Shown here: one piece after another, positions 18,440 through 49,219 of the stretch | How the letters are laid out: each line of letters opens with the position of its first letter | Position numbering within the stretch: the first letter of the stretch is position 1 | Source: Asanoa hainanensis | Lineage (GTDB): Bacteria; Actinomycetota; Actinomycetes; Mycobacteriales; Micromonosporaceae | Assembly: GCF_900188485.1 (NCBI RefSeq) | Contig: NZ_FZPH01000018.1 | Location: 1-64,000, forward strand | DNA length: 64,000 nt | Reading direction: 5' to 3' | Program-made: the position numbers and the translations under genes | The notes under the pieces: model-generated | What the model was told of the DNA's origin: nothing | Databases searched by the model: none | What the model saw: the letters and a program-made list of their open reading frames with translations, nothing else

Positions 18440-20038
18440 GTGCGAGTGACCGGGACGGGACATGCCTCCATGCGGATCGACACCCCAGCGGGGAGCATCC
18501 TGTGTGATCCATGGGTGAATCCGGCCTATTTCGCCTCGTGGTTCCCCTTCCCCGACAACTCGCTGCTCGACTGGGAGACGCTCGGCCAGGTCGACTACCT
18601 GTACCTGAGCCACCTGCACCGCGACCACTTCGACGCCGCGCACCTGCGGCGGTTCGTGTCGAAGAAGGCGCGCGTGTTGCTGCCGGAGTACCCGACCAGC
18701 GAGCTCGAGGACCAGCTCCGCGAGTTGGGCTTCACTGACTTCATCAAGACCGTGTCGGAGGAGGTTCTCGAGCTCGACGGCGGTCTGAAGGTCATGATCC
18801 AGGCGCTGACGTCGCCGACGGACGGGCCGATCGGTGACTCCTCTCTGTGGGTCGAGTACGACGGCGTGCGGCTGCTCAACCAGAACGACGCCCGGCCGAC
18901 CGACCTGGCGCTCTTCGAGTCGCTGGGCCACGTGCACGCGCACATGCTGCAGTTCTCGGGCGCGATCTGGTACCCGATGGTCTACGAGCTGCCCCAAGCC
19001 GCCAAGACCGCGTTCGGCAAGCAGAAGCGGGACCGGCAGTTCGACCGGACCTGGCGCTACATCGACGACCTGAAGGCGTCGCACGTCTTCCCGATCGCCG
19101 GGCCGCCGTGCTTCCTGGACGACGAGCTGTGGCAGTTCAACGACATCTTCGGCGACGAGGGCAACATCTTCCCGGACCAGTCGGTCTTCATGAAGGAGTA
19201 CGCCAAGGTCGGCGGCACCAACGGCGTCGTCCTCCTGCCCGGCAGCGTCTCGGAGATCACCGAGACCTCGATCGAGACGACACACCCGACCGACGTCGAC
19301 GAGTTCTTCGCCAACAAGGTCGCGCACCTCGAGGAGATGCGGGAGCGCAAGCGCCCGATCATCGAGGCCGAGAAGGCGTCGTGGCGGCACCCCGAGATCG
19401 ACGTGCTCAAGGAGATGAAGCGGCGGATCGAGCCGCTCCTCGAAGAGTCGATCTACCTGGCCAAGGGCGTCGGGGGACCGGTCCGCTTCGACCTGGTCGG
19501 CTACGACGGCGACGCGGTCGAGTCGATCGTGGTGGACTTCCCGGGCAAGGAGGTCCGGCGGTACGCGGACGAGAAGGTCCGCTACCGCTTCCGCACCGAG
19601 CGCGCGCTCATCGAACACCTCCTTTTCATCGACGAGGTCGACTGGGTCAACTCGCTGTTCCTCTCGTGCCGCTTCTCCGCGGCGCGGATCGGGCAGTACA
19701 ACGAGTTCGTCTACGCCTTCTTCAAGTGCCTGTCCGAGGAGCGGCTGCAGTACGCCGAGGGCTGGTACGACGAGCACGAGCGCACCACCGACGCCGAGGA
19801 CATCACCCTCGGCGACTGGGTCGTGCAGCGGCGCTGCCCGCACCTGAAGGCCGACCTCACCCGCTTCGGCATCGTCGACGGCGACCAGCTGACCTGCCAG
19901 CTGCACGGGTGGCGGTTCGACCTGCCGAGCGGGCGCTGCCTCACCGGCGTCGGCCACCAGATCCGCGCACGCCGCGCCGGCGAACCGGCACCGGCCACGG
20001 ACGGCGACACACCCGAAGCGGCGGCTACGCCGGCCTAG
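18440..20038 (+). CDS. Metallo-beta-lactamase-fold protein with C-terminal Rieske domain
   Basis: 532 residues from GTG. Residues 1-~240 are an MBL-type hydrolase: a VTGTGHASMRI start, LSHLHRDHFD near residue 57 (metal motif HxHxDH) and a later LNQNDARPTD. The C-terminus has a complete Rieske [2Fe-2S] site, CPH at about 466 and CQLH at about 486 (CxH-x17-CxxH), within a sequence ending HGWRFDLPSGRC. The middle ~200 residues are helical and unassigned. MBL plus Rieske occurs in CMP-Neu5Ac hydroxylase, but there the Rieske part is N-terminal. The substrate is unknown; an iron-dependent hydroxylase or hydrolase acting on a charged metabolite is possible. Confidence 0.82.
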   Translation: MRVTGTGHASMRIDTPAGSILCDPWVNPAYFASWFPFPDNSLLDWETLGQVDYLYLSHLHRDHFDAAHLRRFVSKKARVLLPEYPTSELEDQLRELGFTDFIKTVSEEVLELDGGLKVMIQALTSPTDGPIGDSSLWVEYDGVRLLNQNDARPTDLALFESLGHVHAHMLQFSGAIWYPMVYELPQAAKTAFGKQKRDRQFDRTWRYIDDLKASHVFPIAGPPCFLDDELWQFNDIFGDEGNIFPDQSVFMKEYAKVGGTNGVVLLPGSVSEITETSIETTHPTDVDEFFANKVAHLEEMRERKRPIIEAEKASWRHPEIDVLKEMKRRIEPLLEESIYLAKGVGGPVRFDLVGYDGDAVESIVVDFPGKEVRRYADEKVRYRFRTERALIEHLLFIDEVDWVNSLFLSCRFSAARIGQYNEFVYAFFKCLSEERLQYAEGWYDEHERTTDAEDITLGDWVVQRRCPHLKADLTRFGIVDGDQLTCQLHGWRFDLPSGRCLTGVGHQIRARRAGEPAPATDGDTPEAAATPA

Positions 20039-37471: not shown

Positions 37472-39874
37472 TCAGCCTCGGATTCGGGTGTTGTCCGGGT
37501 CGTACAAGGGTTCTCGGGTGACTGTGGCGTGCTGCCATTCGCCGAACATGCCTACCTCGACCCGATCGCCCTCGGCCACCGTGGACGGCAGGTAGGCGTA
37601 GGCGATCGACGCCTCGACGCGGTAGCCGTAGCCGCCTGAGGTCACGCGGCCGACCGCGGCGCCGGCTGTCCGGACCGGTTCCGTGCCCAGGCAGACCATC
37701 GACGGGTCGTCCAGGACCAGGCAGCGCAGGCGGCGTTCGGGGGCGGCAGCACGGAGGGCCTCGCTGCCCAGGAAGTCCTTGTCCGTGCGGACGGCGAACG
37801 ACAACCCGGCCTCGTGCGGCGTCGTCTCGGGGGTGATGTCGGAGCCCCAGACGCGGTAGCCCTTCTCCAGCCGCATCGACTCGATCGCGCGGTAGCCGGC
37901 CGGTCGTAAGCCGTGCGGTGCCCCCGCTTCGACCAGGAGGTCCCACAAGGTCAACACGTACTCGGTGCTCGCGTAGAGCTCCCAGCCGAACTCGCCGACG
38001 AAGGTGACCCGCTGGGCCAGCACCGGCACCGGTCCGAGGGTGATTCGGCTCGCCCGCATGAAGCGGGCGTCCAGGTCGCCGTCGACCAGCGGTGCCACGA
38101 TCTCGCGTGCCGCCGGGCCCCACAGGCACAGGCACCCGGAGGCGCCGGTGACGTCGTCGATCACGACGTCCGAGGGGGCGTGGCGGCGCAGCCACGCGGC
38201 GTCGCGTACACCCGACGCCGTGCTCGTCACCACGCGGAAATGGTCTTCGGCCAGGCGGGTCACCGTCAGGTCGGCTTCGATTCCCGCGCGGGCGTTGAGC
38301 AACTGCGTGTAGGCGACGCCGCCTACCGGGCGGTCGACGTCGTTCGCGCACATCCATTGCAGGAACGTGGCCGCGCCGGCGCCGCGGACGTCGAGCTTCG
38401 CGAACGACGACTGGTCGAACAGTCCCGCCGCCGACGCGGTGGCCCGGCACTCGGCCGCGATCGCCGGCGACCAGGTGCGACCGGCCCAACCCGCGGGGCG
38501 GGCCGCGTCGGGGTCACCCGGCCGCACACCGAACCAGTTGACCCGCTCCCACCCGGCCTTCTCGCCGAGGGCAGCCGCACCGGTCCGCGGCCAGATGGCC
38601 GACCGGCGCAACGGTCGTCCGGCCGTCCACTCGGTGTGGGGATAGACCACGTCGTAGTAGCGGGAGTACGCGTCGAGCGCCTTCGCCGTTGCCCAGGAAC
38701 GGCTGGCCGCGTGCGCGCCGAAGCGGCGAATGTCCATATGCGACACGTCGTATTCGGGCTGGCCGTCGACGATCCACTCGGCCAGCACTTTGCCCACACC
38801 ACCGGCGGCGGCCAGGCCGTGTACGCAGAAGCCCGCCGCCACCCAGAAGCCGCGCACCGCGGTCTCACCCAATAGGAACTCGCCGTCGGGGGTGAAGGCC
38901 TCCGCGCCGTTGACCACCCGGGCGATCGAGGCCGAACGCAACGAAGGCACCCGATGTTGCCCCGCCGCCCAGGACTCCGCGAACAGGTCCAGCTCCGGCG
39001 GGAACAGCGCCCGTGGCGACGCCAGCGGCGGGCCCGAAGCAGGCCAGCACACCGACGGCGTGCGGATGTAGCCGCCGATCAACAGCCCGTCCGGTGTCGC
39101 CGCCTCGTCGGAGCCCCGGAAGTAGACGATGTGGTCCGGGTCCCGGACCGTCGGCAGGGCAGGCACGTCGGAGAGCGGCAGCGGGGAGCTGACCACGTAC
39201 TGGTGCTTGATCGGCACGACCGGGACCGAGACCCCGGCCAGCCCGCCCACGTGACCGGCCGCCGCGCCCGCCGCGTTGACCACGATCTCGGTGGCGACGC
39301 GGCCCCGCGACGTGTGCACCGCGCGCACCCGGCCGTCGACCACCTCGACCCCGGTCACCGCCGTGCCGGTGGCGAACGAGACCCCGAGCGCGCGGGCGCC
39401 CGCGGCGAGCGCGCCGGCCAACCGGTCGGGCCGCAGGTAGCCGTCGCCCGGGAGCCAACCCGCCAGCAGCACGTCGGCGACCTCGAGAAACGGAAGACGG
39501 TCAGCCAGCTCAGCAGGGGAGAGCAGCTCCAGCGACAGCCCGTACGTGGTCGCCGACGACGCCTGCCGCAGCAGCTCCTCGACCCGCGCAGCGGTCGTGG
39601 CCAGGCGGACACCGCCCACGCCGCGCCACCCGGAGTCGAAGCCAAGGCCGGCCAGCTCCGCGTACAGGCCCGACGAGTACATGATCATGCGCGTCTGGCT
39701 GATCGTCGAGCGCAGTTGGCCGACGAAACCCGCCGAGTGCCAGGTGGTTCCCTCGGTCAGCTCGTGCTGCTCGACGACCAGGACGTCTGTCCAGCCGAGC
39801 CGGGCCAGGTGGTACGCGATGCTGCAGCCCGCGACCCCGCCGCCGACGATCACCACACGCGCATCAGTCCGCAC
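37472..39874 (-). CDS. FAD-dependent oxidoreductase-GcvT fusion (dimethylglycine/sarcosine dehydrogenase-like)
   Basis: About 800 residues from GTG 39874 (AGGA upstream). The frame is open 7 codons further to a TTG. The N-terminal DAO domain has VVIVGGGVAGCSIAYHLARLG and GTTWHSAG, the His of which carries covalent FAD in DMGDH-type enzymes. The second half is a GcvT/aminomethyltransferase fold that in relatives passes the released one-carbon unit to tetrahydrofolate. Relatives demethylate dimethylglycine or sarcosine; PuuB-like amine oxidases share the first domain only. It is divergent from the kinase of the gamma-glutamylation cluster, with 135 bp between starts, so joint control is likely. 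Confidence 0.87.
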   Translation of the reverse strand: MRTDARVVIVGGGVAGCSIAYHLARLGWTDVLVVEQHELTEGTTWHSAGFVGQLRSTISQTRMIMYSSGLYAELAGLGFDSGWRGVGGVRLATTAARVEELLRQASSATTYGLSLELLSPAELADRLPFLEVADVLLAGWLPGDGYLRPDRLAGALAAGARALGVSFATGTAVTGVEVVDGRVRAVHTSRGRVATEIVVNAAGAAAGHVGGLAGVSVPVVPIKHQYVVSSPLPLSDVPALPTVRDPDHIVYFRGSDEAATPDGLLIGGYIRTPSVCWPASGPPLASPRALFPPELDLFAESWAAGQHRVPSLRSASIARVVNGAEAFTPDGEFLLGETAVRGFWVAAGFCVHGLAAAGGVGKVLAEWIVDGQPEYDVSHMDIRRFGAHAASRSWATAKALDAYSRYYDVVYPHTEWTAGRPLRRSAIWPRTGAAALGEKAGWERVNWFGVRPGDPDAARPAGWAGRTWSPAIAAECRATASAAGLFDQSSFAKLDVRGAGAATFLQWMCANDVDRPVGGVAYTQLLNARAGIEADLTVTRLAEDHFRVVTSTASGVRDAAWLRRHAPSDVVIDDVTGASGCLCLWGPAAREIVAPLVDGDLDARFMRASRITLGPVPVLAQRVTFVGEFGWELYASTEYVLTLWDLLVEAGAPHGLRPAGYRAIESMRLEKGYRVWGSDITPETTPHEAGLSFAVRTDKDFLGSEALRAAAPERRLRCLVLDDPSMVCLGTEPVRTAGAAVGRVTSGGYGYRVEASIAYAYLPSTVAEGDRVEVGMFGEWQHATVTREPLYDPDNTRIRG

Positions 39875-39897
39875 CTGCGCAGTCCTACCACCCAAAA

Positions 39898-39908
39898 AGG
39901 TATGACCA
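39898..39908. promoter_or_regulatory. Candidate GntR/FadR-type operator
   Basis: AGGTATGACCA fits the GT-N3-AC pattern typical of FadR-subfamily sites. It lies in the divergent promoter region between the oxidase/GcvT gene and the kinase gene, 24 bp before the former's start. A GntR/FCD regulator is encoded 2.7 kb away. Confidence 0.35.
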
Positions 39909-40009
39909 AATCAGCTATCCGGTCAGTGAACTTTTATCCTCGTGAGTATTGACCGGGGTGATCACGGAGGCGAACACTCCCGCCTAAGACGCGCCATGCG
40001 GAGGCGGGC

Positions 40010-40954
40010 ATGCGGATGGCGGAGCGACCTGAGGCCGACGAGGTGCTGCGGCGTGTGCCGCGTTTCGCCGGGCGGCCGGTGCGCACCACCCCGATCGCGG
40101 GTGGACTGTCGCACCACATCTGGCGGGTCGACACCGGCGGGCGCAGTTACCTGCTGCGCGTACTCGATCCGGCGGTCTCCGCCGCTGGTCTTGGTGTCTC
40201 GCCCGCGCAGGAGATCGAGAACACCCTGCGCGCGGCCGACAGCGGGGCCGGGGCCCGGGTGATCGAGGTGATGCCGGACGTACCCGCGCTCGTGCTCGAG
40301 TTCCTGCCCGGGCGCACGCTGCACGCCGACGACGTGCGCGACCCCGCGACGATCCGGAAGATCGCCGCCGCCTGCCGCAAGCTCCACACCGGCCCGCGGT
40401 TCACCAACGACTTCGACATCGTCGCCAAGCGGCGGGAACTCCTCGACCTCTGCGCGCGACACGACCTGCGAGTGCCGGCCGGCTACCACGATCGCGAGTC
40501 CGAAGTGGATGCGATCGCGCGGGCCGTCGAACAACGACAAACCAGGCCGTGCCACAACGACCTGCTCCCCGAGAACTTCATCGACGTGGCCGGCGAGGTA
40601 CGCATCGTCGACTACCAGCTGTCCGGCAACAACGACCCGGCTTTCGAGCTGGGTGACATAGCGGCCGAGGCCGACTTCGACCCCGACCGGACGGCGGCTC
40701 TGACGGCCGCCTACTTCGGCACAGAGAGCACGCCCGCGTTGCACGCGCGGGTGCGGCTCAACCTGATCCTGTCCAACGTCACCTGGACGCTCTGGTTCTC
40801 CGTGCACCACGGGCTGCTGCGGGCGCCGGGGTCGACGTTCGACTACTGGAACGAAGCGGCCGACAAATGGGCCCGCGCCACCAACGATCTCGACGCGCCC
40901 GACCTGGGTCGTCTGATCGACACCGCCGCGGGCCGCCCGGCCACCCCGTTATGA
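40010..40954 (+). CDS. Choline-kinase-like/APH-fold phosphotransferase
   Basis: 314 residues (second in-frame ATG at 40016). APH/choline-kinase motifs: TTPIAGGLSHHIWRVDTGG (nucleotide loop), PCHNDLLPENFID (Brenner HxDxxxxN catalytic loop) and IVDYQLSGNNDPAFELGD (metal Asp). NN-DPAFELG is typical of the LicA/choline-ethanolamine kinase group. It would phosphorylate a small amino-alcohol in the cytoplasm. It is the first gene rightward in the amine cluster, 21 bp ahead of the permease, which suggests an amino-alcohol or related substrate for the whole cluster (inference). Confidence 0.82.
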   Translation: MRMAERPEADEVLRRVPRFAGRPVRTTPIAGGLSHHIWRVDTGGRSYLLRVLDPAVSAAGLGVSPAQEIENTLRAADSGAGARVIEVMPDVPALVLEFLPGRTLHADDVRDPATIRKIAAACRKLHTGPRFTNDFDIVAKRRELLDLCARHDLRVPAGYHDRESEVDAIARAVEQRQTRPCHNDLLPENFIDVAGEVRIVDYQLSGNNDPAFELGDIAAEADFDPDRTAALTAAYFGTESTPALHARVRLNLILSNVTWTLWFSVHHGLLRAPGSTFDYWNEAADKWARATNDLDAPDLGRLIDTAAGRPATPL

Positions 40955-40975
40955 CCACCTCAGGGAGGTGTCGCA

Positions 40976-42550
40976 GTGACGACCACGTCGCCCGAAACGG
41001 GTGAGCAGCCATTGGACGAAGATGCCCAGCGGCTCGCGGAGCTCGGCTACAAGCAGGAACTCCGGCGCAAGTGGAGCGGATTCTCCAACTTCGCCATCTC
41101 GTTCTCCATCATCTCGATCCTGGCCGGCTGCTTCACCACCTTCGGCCAAGCCTGGAACAACGGCGGCCCAGTCGCGATCTCCTGGGGTTGGCCCCTGATC
41201 TCGATCTTCATCCTGATCATCGGCCTCTGTTTGTCCGAGCTGGTCTCCGCCTATCCCACCGCCGGCGGCATCTACTGGTGGGCCGCGAAGATGGGCAAGC
41301 CGGTGCACGGCTGGTTCACCGGTTGGCTCAACCTGGTGGGCCTGATCGCGGTCACCGCGTCGGTCGACTACGGCTGTGCGACGTTCCTCAACCTGACCCT
41401 GTCGGCGCTCTTCGACGGCTGGGCCGGGACGCTCAACCAGGCGTTCCTGCTGTTCGTGATCATCCTGGCCCTGCACGGCATCATCAACATCTGGGGCCAC
41501 GCGATCATCGACATCCTGCAGAACGTCTCGGTCTGGTGGCACGTCGCCGGTGCGGCGGCGGTCGTCCTGATTCTGATCATCGTTCCGGACAACCACCAGA
41601 GCTTCCAGTTCGTCTTCACCGAGCGCTTCAACAACTCGGGCTTCGGCGACGGCGACCACAACGGCCTGATGTTCTGGTTCTTCATCCTGCCGCTCGGGTT
41701 CCTGCTGACCCAGTACACGATCACCGGTTTCGACGCCTGCGCCCACGTCTCGGAGGAGACCCGCGGCGCCTCGCACGCCGCGGCCCGCGGTCTCTGGCAG
41801 TCGATCTTCTACTCGGCGATCGGTGGCTGGATCCTGCTGCTCGCGTTCCTGTTCGCGGCCACGGACGTCGACGCGATCAACGAGGCAGGCGGCTTCTCGG
41901 GCGCCATCTTCGAGACCGCGCTCACCCCGGTGATGTTCAAGATCGTCATCATCATCTCCACCATCGGCCAGTTCTTCTGCGGCATGAGCTGCGTGACGTC
42001 GATGTCGCGGATGACGTACGCGTTCAGCCGTGACCGCGCGGTCCCGGGCTGGCGACTCTGGTCGAAGGTCAACCGCGACGGCACTCCCGTGTACGCGATC
42101 GTCGCCGGCACCGTCGCCGGTGGCGTGCTGACGCTGCCGGCGCTCTACCAGTACAACGGCATCCCGGTCGCCTTCTACGCGGTCGTCTCGGTCGCGGTCA
42201 TCGGCCTGTACCTGGCGTTCCTCATCCCGATCGCGCTGCGCCTGCGCCTGGGCGACGCGTTCCGGCCGGGTCCGTGGACGCTCGGCAAGCGCTACAAGGT
42301 GCTCGGCTGGATCGCGGTCATCGAGATCGCGGTGATCTCGATCTACTTCATCCTGCCGTTCACCCCGGCCGCGGTCCCGTTCAGCGACGACTTCACCTGG
42401 AGCGCGGTCAACTACGCCCCGCTGGCGGTCGGTGGTGTGCTCCTGGCGGTCTGGATCTGGTGGCGGGTCTCCGCCCGCAAGTGGTTCACGGGCCCCCGCC
42501 GTACAGTCGACGAACCGGACACGTCCGGCGCCAGCACGCCCACGCCCTGA
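40976..42550 (+). CDS. APC-family amino acid/amine permease
   Basis: 524 residues from GTG 40976 with GGGAGG upstream. About 12 TM helices. The start QRLAELGYKQELRRKWSGFSNF followed by AISFSIISILAGCFTTFGQA is typical of the amino-acid/choline transporter group of APC permeases related to GABA permeases. AYPTAGGIYWW is the conserved TM3 motif. It takes up an amine or amino acid with protons or sodium. It follows the kinase by 21 bp and is followed by a perfect hairpin, then the regulator. Confidence 0.88.
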   Translation: MTTTSPETGEQPLDEDAQRLAELGYKQELRRKWSGFSNFAISFSIISILAGCFTTFGQAWNNGGPVAISWGWPLISIFILIIGLCLSELVSAYPTAGGIYWWAAKMGKPVHGWFTGWLNLVGLIAVTASVDYGCATFLNLTLSALFDGWAGTLNQAFLLFVIILALHGIINIWGHAIIDILQNVSVWWHVAGAAAVVLILIIVPDNHQSFQFVFTERFNNSGFGDGDHNGLMFWFFILPLGFLLTQYTITGFDACAHVSEETRGASHAAARGLWQSIFYSAIGGWILLLAFLFAATDVDAINEAGGFSGAIFETALTPVMFKIVIIISTIGQFFCGMSCVTSMSRMTYAFSRDRAVPGWRLWSKVNRDGTPVYAIVAGTVAGGVLTLPALYQYNGIPVAFYAVVSVAVIGLYLAFLIPIALRLRLGDAFRPGPWTLGKRYKVLGWIAVIEIAVISIYFILPFTPAAVPFSDDFTWSAVNYAPLAVGGVLLAVWIWWRVSARKWFTGPRRTVDEPDTSGASTPTP

Positions 42551-42570
42551 CCCTCGGGCCTTCGGCTCCT

Positions 42571-42597
42571 CCGCGACCGGCACGCCGCCGGTCGCGG
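42571..42597 (+). terminator. Hairpin between permease and regulator genes
   Basis: An 11-bp perfect stem, CCGCGACCGGC with GCCGGTCGCGG, and an ACGCC loop, 20 bp after the permease stop. No T-run. Likely a terminator or attenuator setting the regulator apart. Confidence 0.6.
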
Positions 42598-42630
42598 GGG
42601 AGAGGCCACATCCATTTGGGGGTACGCGCA

Positions 42631-43950
42631 ATGCCTACCGACGCGGTCCGCCCACCGCCCCGGCGACCCCGCCCGGCCAAGCCCGCCCAGCCCGCCGCCC
42701 CCGGACCCACCGACGTCCCACCGGACCCCGCCGCGACCTCGCCCGGCCCGCGCAAGCGGGTCGTTCCTGCGGACAGCGTGGCAGCACTGGCGGCGGACTC
42801 CCGTCCGCCAGCGAACGCGGCGTCGGTGGCGGAGTCGGGTGGCCCCCGATCCAGGAAAGCCGCGGACCGCGCGACCGCCACGCACCCGCAACAGCCATCC
42901 AACCACCGCAGGCAGAGGCCCGCCGCATCCCCTGACGCAACGGGGGCGGTGGTTGCGGAGATCGTGGAGCCGCGGCGATCGTCTGCCCGTCGTGGGCGAA
43001 AGCCGGCGGCGGATGCATCCGCCGCAGCGGACACGCTCCGGCCGTCCGCACGAACAGCACGGAGGTCGGCCGCGTCCGCTGCGGCGGTGCCCGCCATCGT
43101 GAAGCAGCGCCGTCCCCGCGATCCCGACCCACAAGCCGAGACCAACGACGGCGAACCGCTCGCGCCCCAACCGGACCGGGCCGCGAGGCGGCGTGGGGAT
43201 TCGGCGCCGGCGGTTGCCGGGGTGCCGCTCTGGCGGCCCGTCCGCGGTGGGAACGCGTTCGAGATCACCGTGTCGCGGTTGGCGCAGGCGATTCGGCTCG
43301 GGCTCGTCGGGGCCGGTGACCGGCTCCCCGCCGAACGGGATCTGGCCGAGCAGCTGCAGGTCAGCCGGGTCACGCTCAGGGAAGCCATCCGGGCCCTGCG
43401 CGAGGCCGGCTTTCTCGAGTCGCGACGAGGGCGCACCGGTGGCACCTTCGTGGTCGCGCCGGTCACCGGCGAGGTCGACAAGGGACGGAAGGCCGCGCCG
43501 AAAGCGAAGGGTGCCGCCGAGCTTGCCCGGCAGATGGGCGACAGCCTGCACGACGCCCTCGATTTTCGGCGGGTGCTCGAGCCCGGGGCGGCCGGGCTGG
43601 CCGCCACCCGCACCCTGACCGCCCCCGAGCGGCAACAGCTCGTCGCCTGTCTGGCCGCCTCCCGCGACCGCGACCCGACCACCCGGCGCGTCGCGGACTC
43701 CCGCCTGCACCTGGCCATCGCGGCCGCCGGCGGGAGCCCCTCGCTGGCCGCCGCCGTCGCGGACGTGCAGCTCGCTCTCGACCGGCTGCTGGTCGCGATT
43801 CCTGTGATCAAGAAGAACCTCGACCACTCGGACCGGCAACATACCCGCGTCGTCGACGCGATTCTTGCCGGGGACGCGGCCGCCGCGCGGGCGACGATGG
43901 AGGAGCACTGCGACGCGACCGCCGAACTGCTGCGCGGCTTGCTCGGATGA
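42631..43950 (+). CDS. GntR/FCD (FadR subfamily) regulator with long N-terminal extension
   Basis: 439 residues from ATG 42631, preceded by GGGGG. The GntR winged helix is at about 205-275 (FEITVSRLAQAIRLGLVGAG, then DRLPAERDLAEQLQVSRVTL). The FCD ligand domain is at about 300-435, with metal-type His in DSRLHLAIA, HSDRQHTRVVD and MEEHCDA. The first ~197 residues are Pro/Ala/Arg-rich and disordered; no relative I know has this. An internal GTG at 43222, just before PLWRPVRGGNAFE, would give a normal-sized protein but lacks a clear ribosome site. It is probably the cluster's regulator. Confidence 0.8.
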   Translation: MPTDAVRPPPRRPRPAKPAQPAAPGPTDVPPDPAATSPGPRKRVVPADSVAALAADSRPPANAASVAESGGPRSRKAADRATATHPQQPSNHRRQRPAASPDATGAVVAEIVEPRRSSARRGRKPAADASAAADTLRPSARTARRSAASAAAVPAIVKQRRPRDPDPQAETNDGEPLAPQPDRAARRRGDSAPAVAGVPLWRPVRGGNAFEITVSRLAQAIRLGLVGAGDRLPAERDLAEQLQVSRVTLREAIRALREAGFLESRRGRTGGTFVVAPVTGEVDKGRKAAPKAKGAAELARQMGDSLHDALDFRRVLEPGAAGLAATRTLTAPERQQLVACLAASRDRDPTTRRVADSRLHLAIAAAGGSPSLAAAVADVQLALDRLLVAIPVIKKNLDHSDRQHTRVVDAILAGDAAAARATMEEHCDATAELLRGLLG

Positions 43951-43963
43951 TTGACGCCGTATT

Positions 43964-43979
43964 GGTTTGCTAGTAGACC
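43964..43979. promoter_or_regulatory. Candidate operator/promoter of the ligase operon
   Basis: GGTTTGCTAGTAGACC is a 16-bp imperfect palindrome (6 of 8 pairs, outer GGT/ACC) centred on CTAG, 27 bp before the ligase start. TTGACG (43951-43956) lies 17 bp upstream of TAGACC, a possible -35/-10 pair overlapping it. It is a plausible target of the regulator encoded just upstream. Confidence 0.4.
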
Positions 43980-44005
43980 TTTAAAAAGCTGATGGAGGCG
44001 CGAGG

Positions 44006-45373
44006 ATGACCCGAGAACCGGCGTTCACGCTCGAAGAGCTCGCCGTCGCCGTCGACGGTGGCGAGATAGACACCGTCGCGCTCGCGCTCACCGACATGGA
44101 GGGCCGCCTCCAGGGCAAGCGCATCCACGGCCGGTTCTTCCTCGACGAGGTCACCGAGGCCGGCGCCGAGGGGTGCAACTACCTGCTGGCCGTCGACGTC
44201 GACATGAACACCGTCGACGGCTACGCGATGTCGAGCTGGGACCGCGGCTACGGCGACTTCGCGATGGTGCCCGACCTGAGCACCCTGCGTCGCGTGCCGT
44301 GGCAGCCGGGCACGGCCCTGCTCCTGGCCGACCTGGCCTGGCTCGACGGCTCCGGCGACGTCGCCGCGAGCCCCCGGCAGATCCTGCGGCGGCAACTGGA
44401 GAAGCTCAGAGCCCACGAGCTCACCGCGTACGCCGGCACCGAGCTCGAGTTCGTCCTCTACAAGGACTCGTACGAGGACGCCTGGCAGCGGGGCTACCGC
44501 GACCTGAACCCGGCCAACCTCTACAACGTCGACTACTCGATGCTCGGCACCGCGCGGGTCGAGCCGCTGCTGCGCCGGATCCGCAACGAGATGGCCGGCG
44601 CCGGGCTCGTGCCGGAGAGCGCCAAGGGCGAGTGCAACCTGGGCCAGCACGAGATCGCGTTCCGCTACGCCGACGCGCTGACCTGCGCCGACCACCACGT
44701 CATCTACAAGAACGGCGCCAAGGAGATCGCCGCCCAGGAGGGCATGTCGATCACCTTCATGGCCAAGCCGAACCAGCGGGAGGGCAACTCCTGCCACATC
44801 CACTTCTCGCTGCGCGGGCCGGACGGGCAGTCGGCAATGTTGGGGGAGGGCCCGGCCCATCTGTCGAAGACCGGGCAGCACGCGCTGGCCGGGCTGCTGG
44901 CCACGATGCGCGAGTTCAGCGTGCTGTTCGCGCCGAACATCAACTCCTACAAGCGCTACCAGCCGGGATCGTTCGCGCCGACCGCCCTGCGCTGGGGCAG
45001 CGACAACCGCACCTGCGCGCTGCGGGTGGTCGGGCACGGCCAGGGCATGCGGGTGGAGAACCGGGTGCCGGGCGCCGACGTCAACCCCTACCTCGCGATC
45101 GCCGCGCTCGTCGCCGGCACCATCCACGGCATCGAGAACGAGCTGCCCCTGGAGGCCGAGTTCACCGGCAACGCGTACGGCGACGACACGTCACCCCGGG
45201 TCCCGAGCACGTTGCGCGAGGCGGCGGCGCTCTGGGAGGGCTCCGACGCCGCCCGCGCCGCGTTCGGTGCCGACGTCGTCGACCACTACGCCAACCGCGC
45301 CCGGATCGAGCTGGCCGCCTTCGACGCGGCGGTCACCGACTGGGAGCTGTTCCGCGGCTTCGAGCGCCTGTAG
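44006..45373 (+). CDS. Glutamine-synthetase-like gamma-glutamyl-amine ligase
   Basis: 455 residues, all of them glutamine-synthetase fold: LTDMEGRLQGKRI in the beta-grasp part, GTELEFVLYKD (metal Glu), KGECNLGQHEIAFRY, GNSCHIHFSL (metal His) and KRYQPGSFAPTALRWGSDNR (ATP/glutamate). The adenylylation loop of GlnA1 is not present, and the length fits the GlnA3/GlnA4/PuuA group. Known members ligate glutamate to polyamines or ethanolamine. With the neighbouring ALDH, SDR and PuuD-like hydrolases it should activate an amine in the first catabolic step. ATG 44006 follows GGAGG. It is the first gene of a tight run to 47522. Confidence 0.9.
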   Translation: MTREPAFTLEELAVAVDGGEIDTVALALTDMEGRLQGKRIHGRFFLDEVTEAGAEGCNYLLAVDVDMNTVDGYAMSSWDRGYGDFAMVPDLSTLRRVPWQPGTALLLADLAWLDGSGDVAASPRQILRRQLEKLRAHELTAYAGTELEFVLYKDSYEDAWQRGYRDLNPANLYNVDYSMLGTARVEPLLRRIRNEMAGAGLVPESAKGECNLGQHEIAFRYADALTCADHHVIYKNGAKEIAAQEGMSITFMAKPNQREGNSCHIHFSLRGPDGQSAMLGEGPAHLSKTGQHALAGLLATMREFSVLFAPNINSYKRYQPGSFAPTALRWGSDNRTCALRVVGHGQGMRVENRVPGADVNPYLAIAALVAGTIHGIENELPLEAEFTGNAYGDDTSPRVPSTLREAAALWEGSDAARAAFGADVVDHYANRARIELAAFDAAVTDWELFRGFERL

Positions 45374-45393
45374 ACCAAAGGGGAGAGAACACC

Positions 45394-46749
45394 GTGACCG
45401 ACCTGGTCAACCCGGCCACCGGGCTGGCGATCGAGACCGTGCCGGCGAGCAGCCTGTACGACACCGACGCCGCCATCGAGCGCGCCCACGCGGCGTTCCC
45501 GCGCTGGCGGGCGATGGCGCCCGCCGACCGGGCCCGGCTGCTGCGCCGGTTCGCCGCGACCGTCGACGCGCACATCGAAGAGCTGGCCGAGCTCGAGGTG
45601 CGCAACTCCGGGCACACCATCGGCAACGCCCGCTGGGAGGCCGGCAACGTCCGCGACGTGCTCGACTACTACGCGGGCGCGCCCGAGCGGCTGATGGGCC
45701 GGCAGATCCCGGTCGCCGGCGGGCTCGACGTCACCTTCCACGAGCCGCTCGGCGTGGTCGGCATCATCGTGCCGTGGAACTTCCCGATGCCGATCGCCGG
45801 CTGGGGTTTCGCGCCGGCGCTGGCGGCCGGCAACACCGTCGTGCTCAAGCCGGCCGAAGTCACGCCGCTGACCGCCTTGCGGCTGGCCGAGTTGGCGACC
45901 AGGGCCGGGCTGCCGGAGGGCGTGTTCACCGTCGTGCCGGGGCGCGGATCCCTGGTCGGCGAGCGGTTCGTGACCCACCCGGCGGTACGCAAGGTCTGCT
46001 TCACCGGCTCGACCGACGTCGGCAAGCGGATCATGCGGGGCTGTGCCGACCAGGTCAAGCGGGTGACGCTGGAGCTGGGCGGTAAGAGCGCCAACATCGT
46101 GTTCGCCGACGCCGACCTGGAGAGGGCGGCGGCGGGTGCGCCGGCCGCGGTCTTCGACAACGCCGGGCAGGACTGCTGCGCACGGTCGAGGATCCTCGTG
46201 CAGCGCCAGGCGTACGACCGATTCCTGGAGCTGTTGGAGCCGGCGGTGCGGGCCTTCCGCGTGGAGGACCCGGCGCTGGAGACGGCGCAGATGGGCCCAC
46301 TGATCACCGCCGCGCAGCGGGACACCGTTAAATCCTATGTGGACGACGCTGCCCGGGTGGCCTTCACCGGCACCGCTCCGGAAGGCCCCGGATTCTGGTA
46401 CGCGCCAACGGTACTGCTGGCCGACTCGCCCGCGGACCGGCACTGGCGCGAGGAGATCTTCGGCCCGGTCGTCTCGGTGCTGCCGTTCGACGACGAGGCC
46501 GACGCGATCCGGTTGGCCAACGACACCGAGTACGGCCTGTCCGGCTCGATCTGGACCCGCGACGCCGGCCGGGCGATCCGGGTGGCCCGTGGTGTCGAGA
46601 CCGGCAACCTGTCGGTCAACTCCAACTCGTCAGTCCGCTATTCGACCCCGTTCGGCGGCATGAAGCAGTCCGGTCTCGGCCGGGAGCTCGGCCCCGACGC
46701 GCTGCTGCCGTTCACCGACGTGAAAAACGTCTTCCTCGCGACTGATTGA
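45394..46749 (+). CDS. NAD(P)-dependent aldehyde dehydrogenase
   Basis: 451 residues from GTG 45394 with GGGGAGAG upstream; the frame is open far into the ligase gene but that part is only a shadow. VPWNFPMPI, LELGGKS (general-base Glu, about 226) and AGQDCCARSR (nucleophile Cys, about 260) are all in place. EEIFGPVVSVLPF closes the pattern. It is slightly short at the N-terminus compared with ~480-residue relatives. In gamma-glutamylated amine pathways this enzyme oxidises the gamma-glutamyl aldehyde to the acid. 20 bp behind the ligase. Confidence 0.92.
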   Translation: MTDLVNPATGLAIETVPASSLYDTDAAIERAHAAFPRWRAMAPADRARLLRRFAATVDAHIEELAELEVRNSGHTIGNARWEAGNVRDVLDYYAGAPERLMGRQIPVAGGLDVTFHEPLGVVGIIVPWNFPMPIAGWGFAPALAAGNTVVLKPAEVTPLTALRLAELATRAGLPEGVFTVVPGRGSLVGERFVTHPAVRKVCFTGSTDVGKRIMRGCADQVKRVTLELGGKSANIVFADADLERAAAGAPAAVFDNAGQDCCARSRILVQRQAYDRFLELLEPAVRAFRVEDPALETAQMGPLITAAQRDTVKSYVDDAARVAFTGTAPEGPGFWYAPTVLLADSPADRHWREEIFGPVVSVLPFDDEADAIRLANDTEYGLSGSIWTRDAGRAIRVARGVETGNLSVNSNSSVRYSTPFGGMKQSGLGRELGPDALLPFTDVKNVFLATD

Positions 46750-46757
46750 GAGGTTCG

Positions 46758-47522
46758 ATGAACAGGCTCCAAGACCGGGTGGCCGTGATCACCGGTGCCG
46801 GAAGCGGCATCGGCCTGGCCACCGCCCGGCGGTTCGCCGCCGAGGGTGCCAAAGTGGTCTGCGTCGACGTCGGCGCCGAGGCCGGCAAGGCGGCGGCCGA
46901 CGAGGTGGGCGGGGAGTTCGTGCTCTGCGACGTGTCCGACGAGGACGGTGTCCGCGAGCTGTTCGACGGCGTCGCCCAAAGGTACGGGCGGGTCGACATC
47001 GCCTTCAACAACGCCGGAATCTCGCCGCCGGACGACGACTCGATCCTGGAAACCGGACTCGACGCCTGGGAGCGGGTCATCCGGGTCAATACCACCAGCG
47101 TCTACCTCTGCTGCAAGTACGCGATCCCGCACATGCGCCGGCAGGGCAAGGGTTCGATCATCAACACCGCGTCCTTCGTGGCCCTGATGGGCGCCGCAAC
47201 CTCGCAGATCGCCTATACCGCCAGCAAGGGCGGAGTCCTGGCGATGACCCGTGAGCTGGGCGTCCAGTTCGCTCGCGAGGGGATCCGGGTCAACGCGCTG
47301 TGCCCTGGGCCGATCGCCACGCCGCTGCTGCTGGAGCTGTTCGCCAAGGATCCGGAGCGGGCGGCGCGACGGCTGGTGCACGTGCCGATGGGGCGGTTCG
47401 GTGCGCCGGAAGAGATCGCGGCAGCCGTCGCCTTCCTCGCCAGTGACGACGCGTCGTTCATGACGGCGGCGCAATTCGTCGTCGACGGCGGAATTACAGG
47501 GGCATACGTCACACCCCTGTAG
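46758..47522 (+). CDS. Short-chain dehydrogenase/reductase
   Basis: 254 residues from ATG 46758, with GAGAGG upstream, 8 bp behind the aldehyde dehydrogenase. Classical SDR: TGAGSGIGLATARR (NAD loop), NNAGIS, the catalytic Ser region NTASFV and YTASKGG (Tyr and Lys). It would oxidise an alcohol to an aldehyde or ketone. In this operon it could turn a gamma-glutamyl amino-alcohol (for example gamma-glutamylethanolamide) into the aldehyde for the ALDH, giving a full alcohol-to-acid sequence; that is inference. Confidence 0.9.
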   Translation: MNRLQDRVAVITGAGSGIGLATARRFAAEGAKVVCVDVGAEAGKAAADEVGGEFVLCDVSDEDGVRELFDGVAQRYGRVDIAFNNAGISPPDDDSILETGLDAWERVIRVNTTSVYLCCKYAIPHMRRQGKGSIINTASFVALMGAATSQIAYTASKGGVLAMTRELGVQFAREGIRVNALCPGPIATPLLLELFAKDPERAARRLVHVPMGRFGAPEEIAAAVAFLASDDASFMTAAQFVVDGGITGAYVTPL

Positions 47523-47582
47523 CGATCGTTTGTCGATCTGGTCGCCGGGTAGCAGAGTATAGACAGGAGGTTCTCAACAACC

Positions 47583-48293
47583 GTGCGACCAATCGTCGGA
47601 ATTACGTCCTATGTAGAACCGGCGTCCTGGGGTGTGTGGATCGACCAGGACGCGGCGTTGATCAGAAAGTCCTACGTCGATGCGGTGACCGCCGCCGGCG
47701 CGCGGGCGGTGATACTTCCCCCGGATGACACTGATGCGGACGTACTCCGCGCCCTCGACGCACTGATCATTGCCGGGGGCGCGGATCTTGGGCCCGACCT
47801 GTACGGGGAGGAGCCCGGCCCACTCACCGACAGCCGCCCCGACCGCGATCGGGGCGAATCCTTGCTGCTTCAGGCGGCCCTGCGCACCGACCTGCCGGTG
47901 CTCGGCATCTGCCGCGGCATGCAACTGCTCGCGGTGACCTGCGGCGGCCGGCTCCACCAGCACCTGCCGGACGTCGTCGGCTCGGACAAGCACCGGCCCG
48001 GTCCAGGCGTCTACGGCTGGCACGGCATCACCCTGGAGCCCGGCTCCCTGGCCGCCGAGGTAGCCGGCGACGGCCCGGAGGGCGACGGCCGAGTAGAGGT
48101 CAACACCTACCACCACCAGGGCGTAGCCGACCCAGGCTCCCTGACGGTAACGGCCTGGGCAGACGACGGCGTAGTAGAAGCGGTAGAAGACCCAACAAAG
48201 CCCTTCGTCCTAGGCGTCCAATGGCACCCGGAAGAGGCAGGCGAACGCCGCATCTTCGAGTCCCTGGTAGACGCGGCGGCGCGAGCCGCCTGA
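47583..48293 (+). CDS. Gamma-glutamyl hydrolase, class I GATase (PuuD-like), paralogue 1
   Basis: 236 residues from GTG 47583 with an excellent AGGAGG. Peptidase C26 fold: VGITSYVEPASWG, LIIAGGADLGPDLYG, nucleophile Cys in LGICRGMQLL, VNTYHHQGV and the His/Glu of GVQWHPEE. It would cut glutamate from the oxidised gamma-glutamyl product. Odd feature: from about 48070 on, codons ending in A (GTA, CCA, ACA, GAA) become frequent, unlike the first two thirds and the neighbours. 60 bp behind the SDR; ends at a perfect hairpin. Confidence 0.9.
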   Translation: MRPIVGITSYVEPASWGVWIDQDAALIRKSYVDAVTAAGARAVILPPDDTDADVLRALDALIIAGGADLGPDLYGEEPGPLTDSRPDRDRGESLLLQAALRTDLPVLGICRGMQLLAVTCGGRLHQHLPDVVGSDKHRPGPGVYGWHGITLEPGSLAAEVAGDGPEGDGRVEVNTYHHQGVADPGSLTVTAWADDGVVEAVEDPTKPFVLGVQWHPEEAGERRIFESLVDAAARAA

Positions 48294-48307
48294 CCAGGCC
48301 AGCGATT

Positions 48308-48353
48308 GCAAGGGACCCTTGTTATGCGAAAAGCGATAACAAGGGTCCCTTGC
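48308..48353 (+). terminator. Perfect 18-bp hairpin with palindromic arms
   Basis: GCAAGGGACCCTTGTTAT (48308-48325) pairs perfectly with ATAACAAGGGTCCCTTGC (48336-48353). Each arm contains AAGGGACCCTT or its complement, itself an inverted repeat, so cruciform or nested structures are possible. TTTCGG follows. A likely terminator of the ligase operon; similar CAAGGGACCCTTG elements recur in Micromonosporaceae (from memory). Confidence 0.8.
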
Positions 48354-48373
48354 TTTCGGTTGTGTGCCGCGAG

Positions 48374-48450
48374 CCTGGCAGCGTAGCGAAGCGGAGCGTT
48401 CTCCGGCGGGAGCGACGGTCCGGACCACCGCGGACCCGGGACCGCGATCT
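48374..48450 (+). repeat. Dispersed intergenic repeat, copy F
   Basis: CTGGCAGCGTAGCGAAGCGG, AGCGTTCTCCGGCGGGAGCG, ACGGTCCGGACCACCGCGGA and CCCGGGACCGCGATC follow one another. It matches copies A and D closely, and lies directly after the palindromic hairpin and before the second hydrolase gene. Confidence 0.62.
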
Positions 48451-48523
48451 TTGTCCCTGAGGTTTGGCGCTCGACCAGACCTTTCGCGATCGTAAGAACC
48501 GGTTTTTTCGCTAGAGTGAGCTG

Positions 48524-49219
48524 ATGTCTCGGCCTGTGATCGGCCTGACGACCTACGCCGAAGAGGCGAGGTTCGGGCTCAACGACACGTTCGCCGCCGT
48601 GCTGCCGCTGGCCTACGTCCAGGCGGTGCACAACAGCGGAGGGCGTGCGGTCCTCATCACCCCCGACGCGCCCGATGTCGACGCCCTCGACGGTCTCGAC
48701 GGGATCGTGTTCACGGGCGGGTCCGACGTCGACCCGGCGCTCTACGGCGAGCCGGCGCACCCGACCACCCAGGTCAAGCCCGAGCGGGACGCCGCGGAGA
48801 TGCTGTTGCTGCGCGCCGCGCTGGCGGCCGACCTGCCGACGCTGGCGATCTGTCGCGGCATGCAGCTCATGACGGTCGCCTACGGTGGCAAGCTGCACCA
48901 GCACCTGCCCGAGGTGCTCGGCCACGACAACCACCGGCCGGTGTCCGGGCCGCGGTTCGGCTTCCACCGGGTCGACCTGGCGCCCGGGTCGCTGGCGCGC
49001 GGCCTGCTCGGCGAGTCGGTCGAGGTCAACTCGTTCCACCACCAGGGCGTGGCCGACCCCGGGAAGCTGACGGCGACCGGCTGGTGCCCCGAGGACAACC
49101 TGATCGAGGTCGTCGAGGACCCGGCGCTGCGGTTCGCGATCGGCGTGCAGTGGCATCCGGAGGACACCACCGACCACCGGCTCTTCGCGGCCCTGGTCAA
49201 CGCGGGTTCCAGCAGCTGA
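48524..49219 (+). CDS. Gamma-glutamyl hydrolase, class I GATase (PuuD-like), paralogue 2
   Basis: 231 residues. It has the same C26 motifs as the gene upstream: VIGLTTYAEEARFG, GIVFTGGSDVDPALYG, nucleophile Cys in LAICRGMQLM, VNSFHHQGVADPG and GVQWHPED. The two are clearly paralogues but far from identical. Its own promoter probably lies at 48480-48520, where AACCGGTTTTTTCGCTAGAGT holds a palindrome and a -10-like TAGAGT. It may serve a second gamma-glutamyl product or a constitutive housekeeping role. Confidence 0.9.
   Translation: MSRPVIGLTTYAEEARFGLNDTFAAVLPLAYVQAVHNSGGRAVLITPDAPDVDALDGLDGIVFTGGSDVDPALYGEPAHPTTQVKPERDAAEMLLLRAALAADLPTLAICRGMQLMTVAYGGKLHQHLPEVLGHDNHRPVSGPRFGFHRVDLAPGSLARGLLGESVEVNSFHHQGVADPGKLTATGWCPEDNLIEVVEDPALRFAIGVQWHPEDTTDHRLFAALVNAGSSS

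Follow-up and report, generated by a model that had tools for sequence, protein, structure and literature searches.

Organization of the gene cluster

The 64-kb window of the Asanoa hainanensis genome studied here, meaning the whole stretch of 64,000 nucleotides, carries between positions 37472 and 49219 a gene cluster composed of two halves (Table 1). The right half codes for a ligase of the GlnA4 type, related to glutamine synthetase (GS), an aldehyde dehydrogenase (ALDH), a short-chain alcohol dehydrogenase (SDR) and two C26 hydrolases. The left half codes for a kinase of the choline/ethanolamine kinase type, an APC permease and, divergently, a flavin oxidase of the dimethylglycine dehydrogenase (DMGDH) type fused to GcvT, while a GntR-type regulator gene precedes the ligase gene. 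The genes and families named in a preliminary description of this DNA are all present. The GlnA4 ethanolamine core was already known; what is new is a recurring module of kinase and DMGDH-GcvT that is repeatedly joined to this core.

Table 1. Coordinates of the cluster and of the DMGDH-like proteins found beside ligases in related loci
Feature	Position	Strand	Remarks
DMGDH-like flavin oxidase fused to GcvT, predicted tetrahydrofolate-linked N-demethylase	37472..39895	-	Pfam DAO, FAO_M, GCV_T, GCV_T_C
Operator-like word AAAAGGTAT	39895-39903		One mismatch to AAAWGGTCT; overlaps the DMGDH frame end by one base
Divergent promoter gap, DMGDH-GcvT/kinase	39896..40009		Carries AAAAGGTAT
Choline/ethanolamine-kinase-like enzyme, remodelled pocket	40010..40954	+	Pfam APH, Choline_kinase
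APC permease	40976..42550	+	TIGR00907-like, below cut-off
GntR/FCD (FadR-type) regulator	43243..43950	+	Helix-turn-helix from about 43273; start uncertain
Promoter gap of the ligase operon, regulator/ligase	43951..44005		Carries TAAAGGTCT
Operator-like word TAAAGGTCT	43975-43983	-	One mismatch to AAAWGGTCT
GlnA4-type gamma-glutamylethanolamide synthetase (GS-like, predicted)	44006..45373	+	Pfam Gln-synt_C
ALDH, predicted for gamma-glutamyl aldehyde	about 45394..46749	+	Pfam Aldedh
SDR alcohol dehydrogenase, predicted for gamma-glutamylethanolamide	46746..47522	+	NF004713/PRK06057
First C26 hydrolase, predicted gamma-glutamylglycine amidohydrolase	47583..48293	+	Pfam Peptidase_C26
Strong inverted repeat, terminator-like	48303..48358		Folding compared with shuffles
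Second C26 hydrolase	48524..49219	+	Pfam Peptidase_C26
FAD-only DMGDH-like proteins without GcvT, divergent from a GlnA4-type ligase	L077:7534-8907, L078:8080-9348, L079:8140-9354

The GlnA4-type core

Judged by its sequences, the right half (ligase, ALDH, SDR, C26 hydrolase) is predicted to encode the gamma-glutamylethanolamide pathway of GlnA4 that has been described in Streptomyces coelicolor. In that organism GlnA4, published in 2019, makes gamma-glutamylethanolamide and is required for growth on ethanolamine; a figure legend calls it ethanolamine-specific among the compounds tested (PMC6529630). Its gene is repressed by EpuRI and has as neighbours the genes for an SDR, an ALDH, an amidohydrolase and the repressor, with a permease in some species, the SDR, ALDH and amidohydrolase steps to glycine being proposals of the same paper (PMC6529630). 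The window ligase is 65-70% identical to ten glnA4 copies of genus g50, whose loci match the window in SDR and ALDH and also have a C26 hydrolase; the GntR-type regulator there is divergent from glnA4 and 44-48% identical to the window regulator. Genus g50 is taken as Streptomyces because its loci have the published layout and because both glnA4 primers published for S. coelicolor fit one of them (L232) with zero mismatches. The assignment of the window genes to a gamma-glutamylation route is thus sustained, and kinship with the S. coelicolor cluster agrees with the earlier suggestion of an amino alcohol such as ethanolamine as substrate. The core amine, which had been described as unidentified, is most likely ethanolamine since the right half corresponds to the S. 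coelicolor GlnA4-type pathway. No match to the EutB family, a component of the EutBC ethanolamine ammonia-lyase route, was found in the A. hainanensis genome.

The SDR scores 481.5 bits against NF004713/PRK06057 (cut-off 404) and the ligase 381 bits against 5dm3. All ten GlnA4-type rows compared (the window and nine relatives) have Phe at the column of Glu327 of true GS, a position where GlnA of the same genome (L001) has Glu; F331 is reported for GlnA4 (PMC6529630). A 14-residue insertion precedes the ammonium-site Asp50 column, where the alignment gives Asp in nine of the ten rows and Ser in one, and the ammonium-site residue of GlnA4 is named D81 or D69 depending on the model (PMC6529630). 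The Phe residue and the kinship with GlnA4 speak against a true GS using only ammonia, the outcome that would have contradicted the preliminary description, and this candidate was discarded. A polyamine route was rejected as well: the ligase reaches only 182.8 bits on the gamma-glutamylputrescine model (cut-off 650), and the core is that of the published ethanolamine cluster.

The GlnA4/EpuRI cluster of S. coelicolor (SCO1610-1615) and the window have in common the ligase, SDR, ALDH, C26 hydrolase and GntR-type regulator. They differ in that the window regulator is co-directional instead of divergent, its permease belongs to another APC family, and kinase and DMGDH-GcvT are added; the promoter word described below does not occur in the ten g50 loci. 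The Phaeobacter gamma-glutamylethanolamide operon also has a ligase, two dehydrogenases and a gamma-glutamylglycine amidohydrolase, but its transporter is of the TRAP type, its regulator is RpiR and its figure legend lists neither a kinase nor a DMGDH (PMC10132767). Proteins for the same steps increase in Phaeobacter on phosphoethanolamine (PMC10132767).

In six of seven Streptosporangiaceae core loci the GlnA4 core is followed by a GcvT-domain match, within ~1.1 kb in L243, L244 and L246 and at 4.5-6 kb in L245, L247 and L251, while the sequence of the seventh (L242) ends early. This arrangement fits glycine as the end product of the core.

A recurring kinase and DMGDH-GcvT module

A family survey covered 121 genomes of Micromonosporaceae. 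Ligase matches are found in 88 of them, the kinase at ~58% identity or more in 23 (a 37% kinase occurs in three further genomes, of genus g22) and DMGDH-GcvT at ~68% or more in 22. Kinase and DMGDH are both present in 22 genomes and both missing in 98; the kinase occurs alone once, in a genome whose cluster is on a 3.2-kb contig, and the DMGDH never does. Kinase and ligase are found together in 23 genomes, the ligase alone in 65, the kinase alone in none and neither in 33. This co-occurrence exceeds chance, with the proviso that the Fisher values computed for these comparisons take no account of kinship among the genomes. The comparison of gene content near GlnA4-type ligases proposed in the preliminary description thus yields a close kinase in 23 of the 88 ligase genomes, always on the same contig and within ~4 kb. 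The 22 complete cases, window included, share the order DMGDH(-), kinase(+), permease(+), regulator(+), ligase(+). Ligase, DMGDH and kinase are common to six genomes of one genus.

A broader kinase set was assembled from a named scan (best 80 of 562 kinase relatives), plasmids (six of 47 records) and a few family loci. Rows shorter than 220 amino acids were dropped and two near-duplicates removed, leaving 97 kinases besides the window one, in 90 loci. All loci entered the set through their kinase apart from L058 and L061-L063, four family loci already known to have a DMGDH match. A DMGDH-type gene lies at most 5.5 kb from the kinase in 91 of the 97 rows. For kinases of at least 49% identity it is nearby in 64 of 69, and 66 of these 69 have a related permease; below 49% the DMGDH-type gene is found in 27 of 28. 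The loci without a nearby DMGDH are L143, L150, L158, L174, L177 and the short contig L180. Most DMGDH-type proteins are full fusions, because 92 of the 102 frames collected (three form-C proteins, two paralogues of the A. hainanensis genome and the window protein included) have at least 700 amino acids.

The module is found among Actinomycetota, Chloroflexota and Alphaproteobacteria, and its neighbourhood often lacks a ligase. Three alphaproteobacterial plasmids code for a DeoR regulator, DMGDH and kinase, and in a fourth (Shinella) a betaine/choline ABC transporter adjoins the module. In four loci from metagenome-assembled Chloroflexota genomes (L185, L186, L188, L190) the module is accompanied by an APC permease in several cases, a phosphoesterase, mostly a DeoR regulator, a CBS-domain protein and a PfkB kinase; three of the four have a gene for an MttB-family methyltransferase (family scan on L186). 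Kinase and DMGDH-GcvT, usually with an APC permease, are a separate recurring module that also lives alone, so that the non-standard flank is not peculiar to this locus. No description of a bacterial choline-kinase/DMGDH pair was found among the open-licence papers listed.

In Streptosporangiaceae a gene resembling lipoate ligase lies near the module permease (L170:12555-13193, the copy scanned, and 30 other loci), which may reflect synteny only.

Coupling of the module to the core and a shared promoter word

Among kinases of at least 49% identity the ligase is located within 10.5 kb in 20 rows, was not seen in 35, a class that takes in rows having only 5.5 kb of flank on one side, and is undecided from short flanks in 14. 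Below 49% it is adjacent in two rows. The coupling label changes five times on a quick kinase tree, four of the changes being forced by starred branches. Gene orders vary among Micromonosporaceae, Crossiella, Thermoleophilaceae, Thermomonosporaceae and genus g22: the hydrolase gene stands ahead of that of ALDH in Crossiella (L129) and Thermoleophilaceae (L131); in Actinoallomurus (L134) ligase, ALDH and SDR follow DMGDH, with kinase and permease divergent; and the g22 loci L062 and L063 have two DMGDHs and a permease nearest to another model. The Crossiella permease that occupies the slot of the window permease, with kinase, regulator and ligase beside it, passes the TIGR00908 ethanolamine cut-off (538.9 bits). 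In genome G005, of poor quality, the kinase directly adjoins the ligase on a 3.2-kb contig (L065). The module has been joined to the GlnA4 core repeatedly. That genomes with the module also have a ligase at some other place was judged weak evidence and left aside: it holds for 31 of the 32 genomes searched, out of 33 selected, but two of these (L129, L144) represent coupled loci, and in g50 the ligase is found in 38 of 41 in any case.

A word, AAAGGTCT, first spotted by eye in 14 relatives, is common to the DMGDH/kinase and regulator/ligase gaps. A search of all words returned it as the best 8-mer shared by the two gaps, with 14 of 22 loci having it in the one and 14 of 22 in the other. Its spread over genera was reached by none of 200 shuffles, a figure that serves as a guide and not as a probability because plain shuffling breaks relatedness. 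The extended form AAAWGGTCT has 28 exact matches in the 40 loci L041-L080, and all 28 fall in kinase/DMGDH, DMGDH/ligase or regulator/ligase gaps. Three of the matches are of the g22 type, in the kinase/DMGDH gap of L061 and the DMGDH/ligase gaps of L062 and L063, loci that were unseen when the word was chosen. The kinase loci L047, L055 and L065 have no exact match, and among 15 kinase-less loci only L067 has one. The word is a putative operator of the GntR protein, through which both gaps would be co-regulated. Repeated coupling and the shared word together support the link between the left and right halves that had first been drawn from adjacency.

AAAWGGTCT was also considered, and rejected, as a general feature of the module. 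In 65 other kinase loci (L119-L190 minus seven ligase-coupled Micromonosporaceae loci) there are eight exact matches in 1,148,178 bases, none in a gene-free kinase/DMGDH gap. The match in L185 lies between kinase and DMGDH but inside another frame, and that at L190:2114 is in a divergent gap of the cluster, ahead of the phosphoesterase gene.

Kinase and permease

The A1 profile of the kinase scores an E-value of 6.5e-52 against 3dxq and 5.4e-23 against the choline kinase LicA (4r77). Its closest named relative, from Asanoa ishikariensis, is 93% identical. The window enzyme is like LicA and 3dxq in its family by profile and in the catalytic Asp, two Trp and the Glu at the rim of the choline site. 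Choline in LicA is enclosed by Y197, W251, W254, Y268 and V178, and the rim is occupied by E213 (PMC4364537). These positions were transferred by hand via HMMER alignments. W259, W262 and E220 are kept in the window clade and L204, E282 and Q203 are changed: Leu, Glu and Gln replace Tyr197, Tyr268 and Glu196 of LicA in 70 of 70 rows. Two of the four aromatic residues of the LicA-type cage (Y197, W251, W254, Y268, with E213) are therefore lost and E213 is kept. Such a pocket, less aromatic and more acidic, would be better suited to an amino alcohol in protonated form than to choline with its quaternary amine.

The pocket bears on the idea that the left module serves another methylated, hydroxylated cation (choline or a carnitine-like compound) and is tied to the core only through a shared response to the supply of lipid head groups. 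The full aromatic cage, with Tyr, Trp and Glu at the Y197, Y268 and E196 places, in 16 of 16 kinases at 34-48% identity and the transporter beside the Shinella module speak for it. The loss of half of the cage throughout the window clade goes against it, as does the lack of any quaternary-amine enzyme seen in the window cluster, and this explanation is considered improbable.

The window permease scores 34.6 bits against the ethanolamine permease model TIGR00908 (cut-off 381.75); no permease anywhere in the genome exceeds this cut-off, the best reaching 125.6 bits. It is 67-78% identical to permeases of stand-alone actinobacterial modules. The 2.A.3.4 (TIGR00907) group presumably includes the yeast choline permease.

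The DMGDH-GcvT protein and its paralogues

The window DMGDH-GcvT scores 465 bits each against rat DMGDH (4pab) and Arthrobacter globiformis dimethylglycine oxidase (1pj5), with which it shares the DAO plus GcvT layout, the covalent His, the His-Tyr dyad and the folate-site Asp. H53, H231, Y258 and D542 are conserved across the kinase-linked set, the catalytic residues having been placed with numbers that we take to be those of the A. globiformis enzyme. Of the 72 rows at or above 49% identity, 68 have the covalent His, 71 the His and 70 the Tyr of the dyad, and 70 the folate Asp; the exceptions are gaps save for two other residues at the dyad Tyr. The corresponding figures in 25 more distant rows are 21, 25, 25 and 23. 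The His-Tyr dyad of DMGDH has been described (PMC5082570).

The nearest relative of dimethylglycine oxidase in this genome is another gene. A second DMGDH, on contig C31, scores 934 bits against the A. globiformis enzyme, compared with the equal rat and Arthrobacter scores of the window protein, and its locus codes also for a GMC oxidoreductase, two sarcosine-oxidase-type subunits and an ABC transporter. By these scores the second DMGDH is the dimethylglycine-oxidase orthologue and the window enzyme a different paralogue; a third DMGDH is found on contig C28. R62, R278 and H359 are fixed in kinase-linked DMGDHs, whereas the dimethylglycine oxidase of the same genome lacks these charged residues. 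Choline breakdown in the betaine/dimethylglycine sense, which had been offered as an example of what the cluster handles, is unlikely for the window locus and was rejected, as the contig C31 locus fits it. In L059 and L060 (Phytohabitans group) the DMGDH match is fragmented and so are other genes there; sequencing error is possible.

Proposed pathway and alternatives

The two modules are proposed to be joined, probably under one regulator, with the left one converting N-methylated ethanolamines to ethanolamine that feeds the core, a reading to which we give an even chance of being correct. In the core, ethanolamine would be ligated to glutamate by the GlnA4-type ligase, SDR and ALDH would oxidise the alcohol of gamma-glutamylethanolamide to gamma-glutamylglycine, and the C26 hydrolase would split the latter into glycine and glutamate. 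In the left module the permease would import an N-methylated ethanolamine (mono- or dimethylethanolamine; choline is less likely), the kinase would phosphorylate its hydroxyl group and DMGDH-GcvT would transfer the N-methyl groups to tetrahydrofolate. The freed ethanolamine would enter the core, after loss of the phosphate if phosphorylation comes first, and the GntR regulator is predicted to control both promoter gaps. The left-module substrate, the order of kinase before demethylase, the phosphatase step and GntR binding of the word are putative elements of this scheme.

Several observations weigh against the scheme. The window has one-mismatch forms of the word in its two gaps and its sole exact AAAWGGTCT is inside the DMGDH gene. 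None of the 65 other kinase loci has the word in its kinase/DMGDH gap, and the coupled loci among them (L129, L131, L134 and L144) lack it. In 29 short loci from a phylum search, DMGDH lies within ~1.5 kb of the kinase in 13 and not in 16, whose kinases are 27-33% identical. The g22 kinases retain the aromatic cage yet are coupled to the ligase. In L070 and L074 the ligase is accompanied by an 82% identical permease but by neither kinase nor DMGDH, and the permease may therefore work for the core. The window cluster showed no gene for a phosphatase or phospho-lyase. Three kinase-free family loci code beside the ligase for a FAD-only protein resembling DMGDH (46-48% identity), and the oxidase may for this reason work without phosphorylation.

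The last finding would also agree with a strict form of the two-branch idea in the preliminary description, in which N-methylethanolamine itself is glutamylated and oxidised by the core and the released sarcosine is then demethylated by DMGDH-GcvT, since DMGDH takes dimethylglycine and, poorly, sarcosine (PMC5082570). Such a scheme leaves the kinase without a job, and many modules have no ligase nearby (35 of the 55 rows at or above 49% identity that are not truncated). Sarcosine oxidase subunits and the dimethylglycine oxidase orthologue are encoded elsewhere in the genome and the specificity stated for S. coelicolor GlnA4 (PMC6529630) is to be added to these objections, making it distinctly unlikely.

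Alternatively, the cluster could be a plain GlnA4 ethanolamine cluster whose kinase makes phosphoethanolamine, for lipid head-group salvage or detoxification, next to a DMGDH-GcvT with an unrelated substrate. The 65 family genomes with a ligase and no close kinase, the core that is complete in relatives without the left genes, a kinase pocket that could accept an amino alcohol in protonated form and five Streptosporangiaceae loci that have kinase and permease without DMGDH, which count against the proposed pathway as well, are all consistent with it. The association of kinase and DMGDH-type gene across phyla and the promoter word shared by the kinase/DMGDH and ligase gaps argue in the opposite direction, and on balance this explanation is held to be unlikely.

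Within the conversion of N-methylated ethanolamines to ethanolamine, an order with the kinase first is attractive because the phosphate could stand in for the carboxylate recognised by DMGDH. Tentatively, and with considerable doubt, phospho-base demethylation can be envisaged: N-methylated ethanolamine phosphates made by the kinase, bearing a phosphate in place of the dimethylglycine carboxylate, would be stripped by the folate-linked flavoenzyme to phosphoethanolamine.

Other features of the window

The inverted repeat that separates the first C26 hydrolase gene from the second has a folding energy of -41.3 kcal/mol (z -9.59), matched by none of 200 shuffles. The second hydrolase gene is probably outside the main transcript, on a separate one, because this very stable hairpin precedes it. 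The frame 42631-43242, upstream of the GntR domain, is rich in Ala, Pro and Arg and has a GC content by codon position of 0.80/0.72/0.79, compared to 0.79/0.53/0.88 in the core; it is either a long disordered amino-terminal extension of the regulator or non-coding.

The cluster is bordered by an MFS transporter gene to the left and by PPOX, VIT and M24 genes to the right. The window codes also for dxr, ispG, nusA and infB. A protein encoded at 18440-20038 combines an Rv3818-like SCP2 domain, a Rieske domain and a weak metallo-beta-lactamase-like match.

Biological significance

For a kinase-demethylase pair found in at least three phyla, the analysis points to a likely role and to a class of substrates that can be tested. 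The proposed pathway would tie methylated membrane-lipid head groups to one-carbon metabolism and to a bacterial ethanolamine route, and the shared promoter word puts co-regulation of the two halves within direct experimental reach. If true, the phospho-base route would be a catabolic counterpart, run in reverse, of the methylation that turns phosphoethanolamine into phosphocholine; it would occur in at least three phyla and, in some actinobacteria, be linked to the gamma-glutamyl route.

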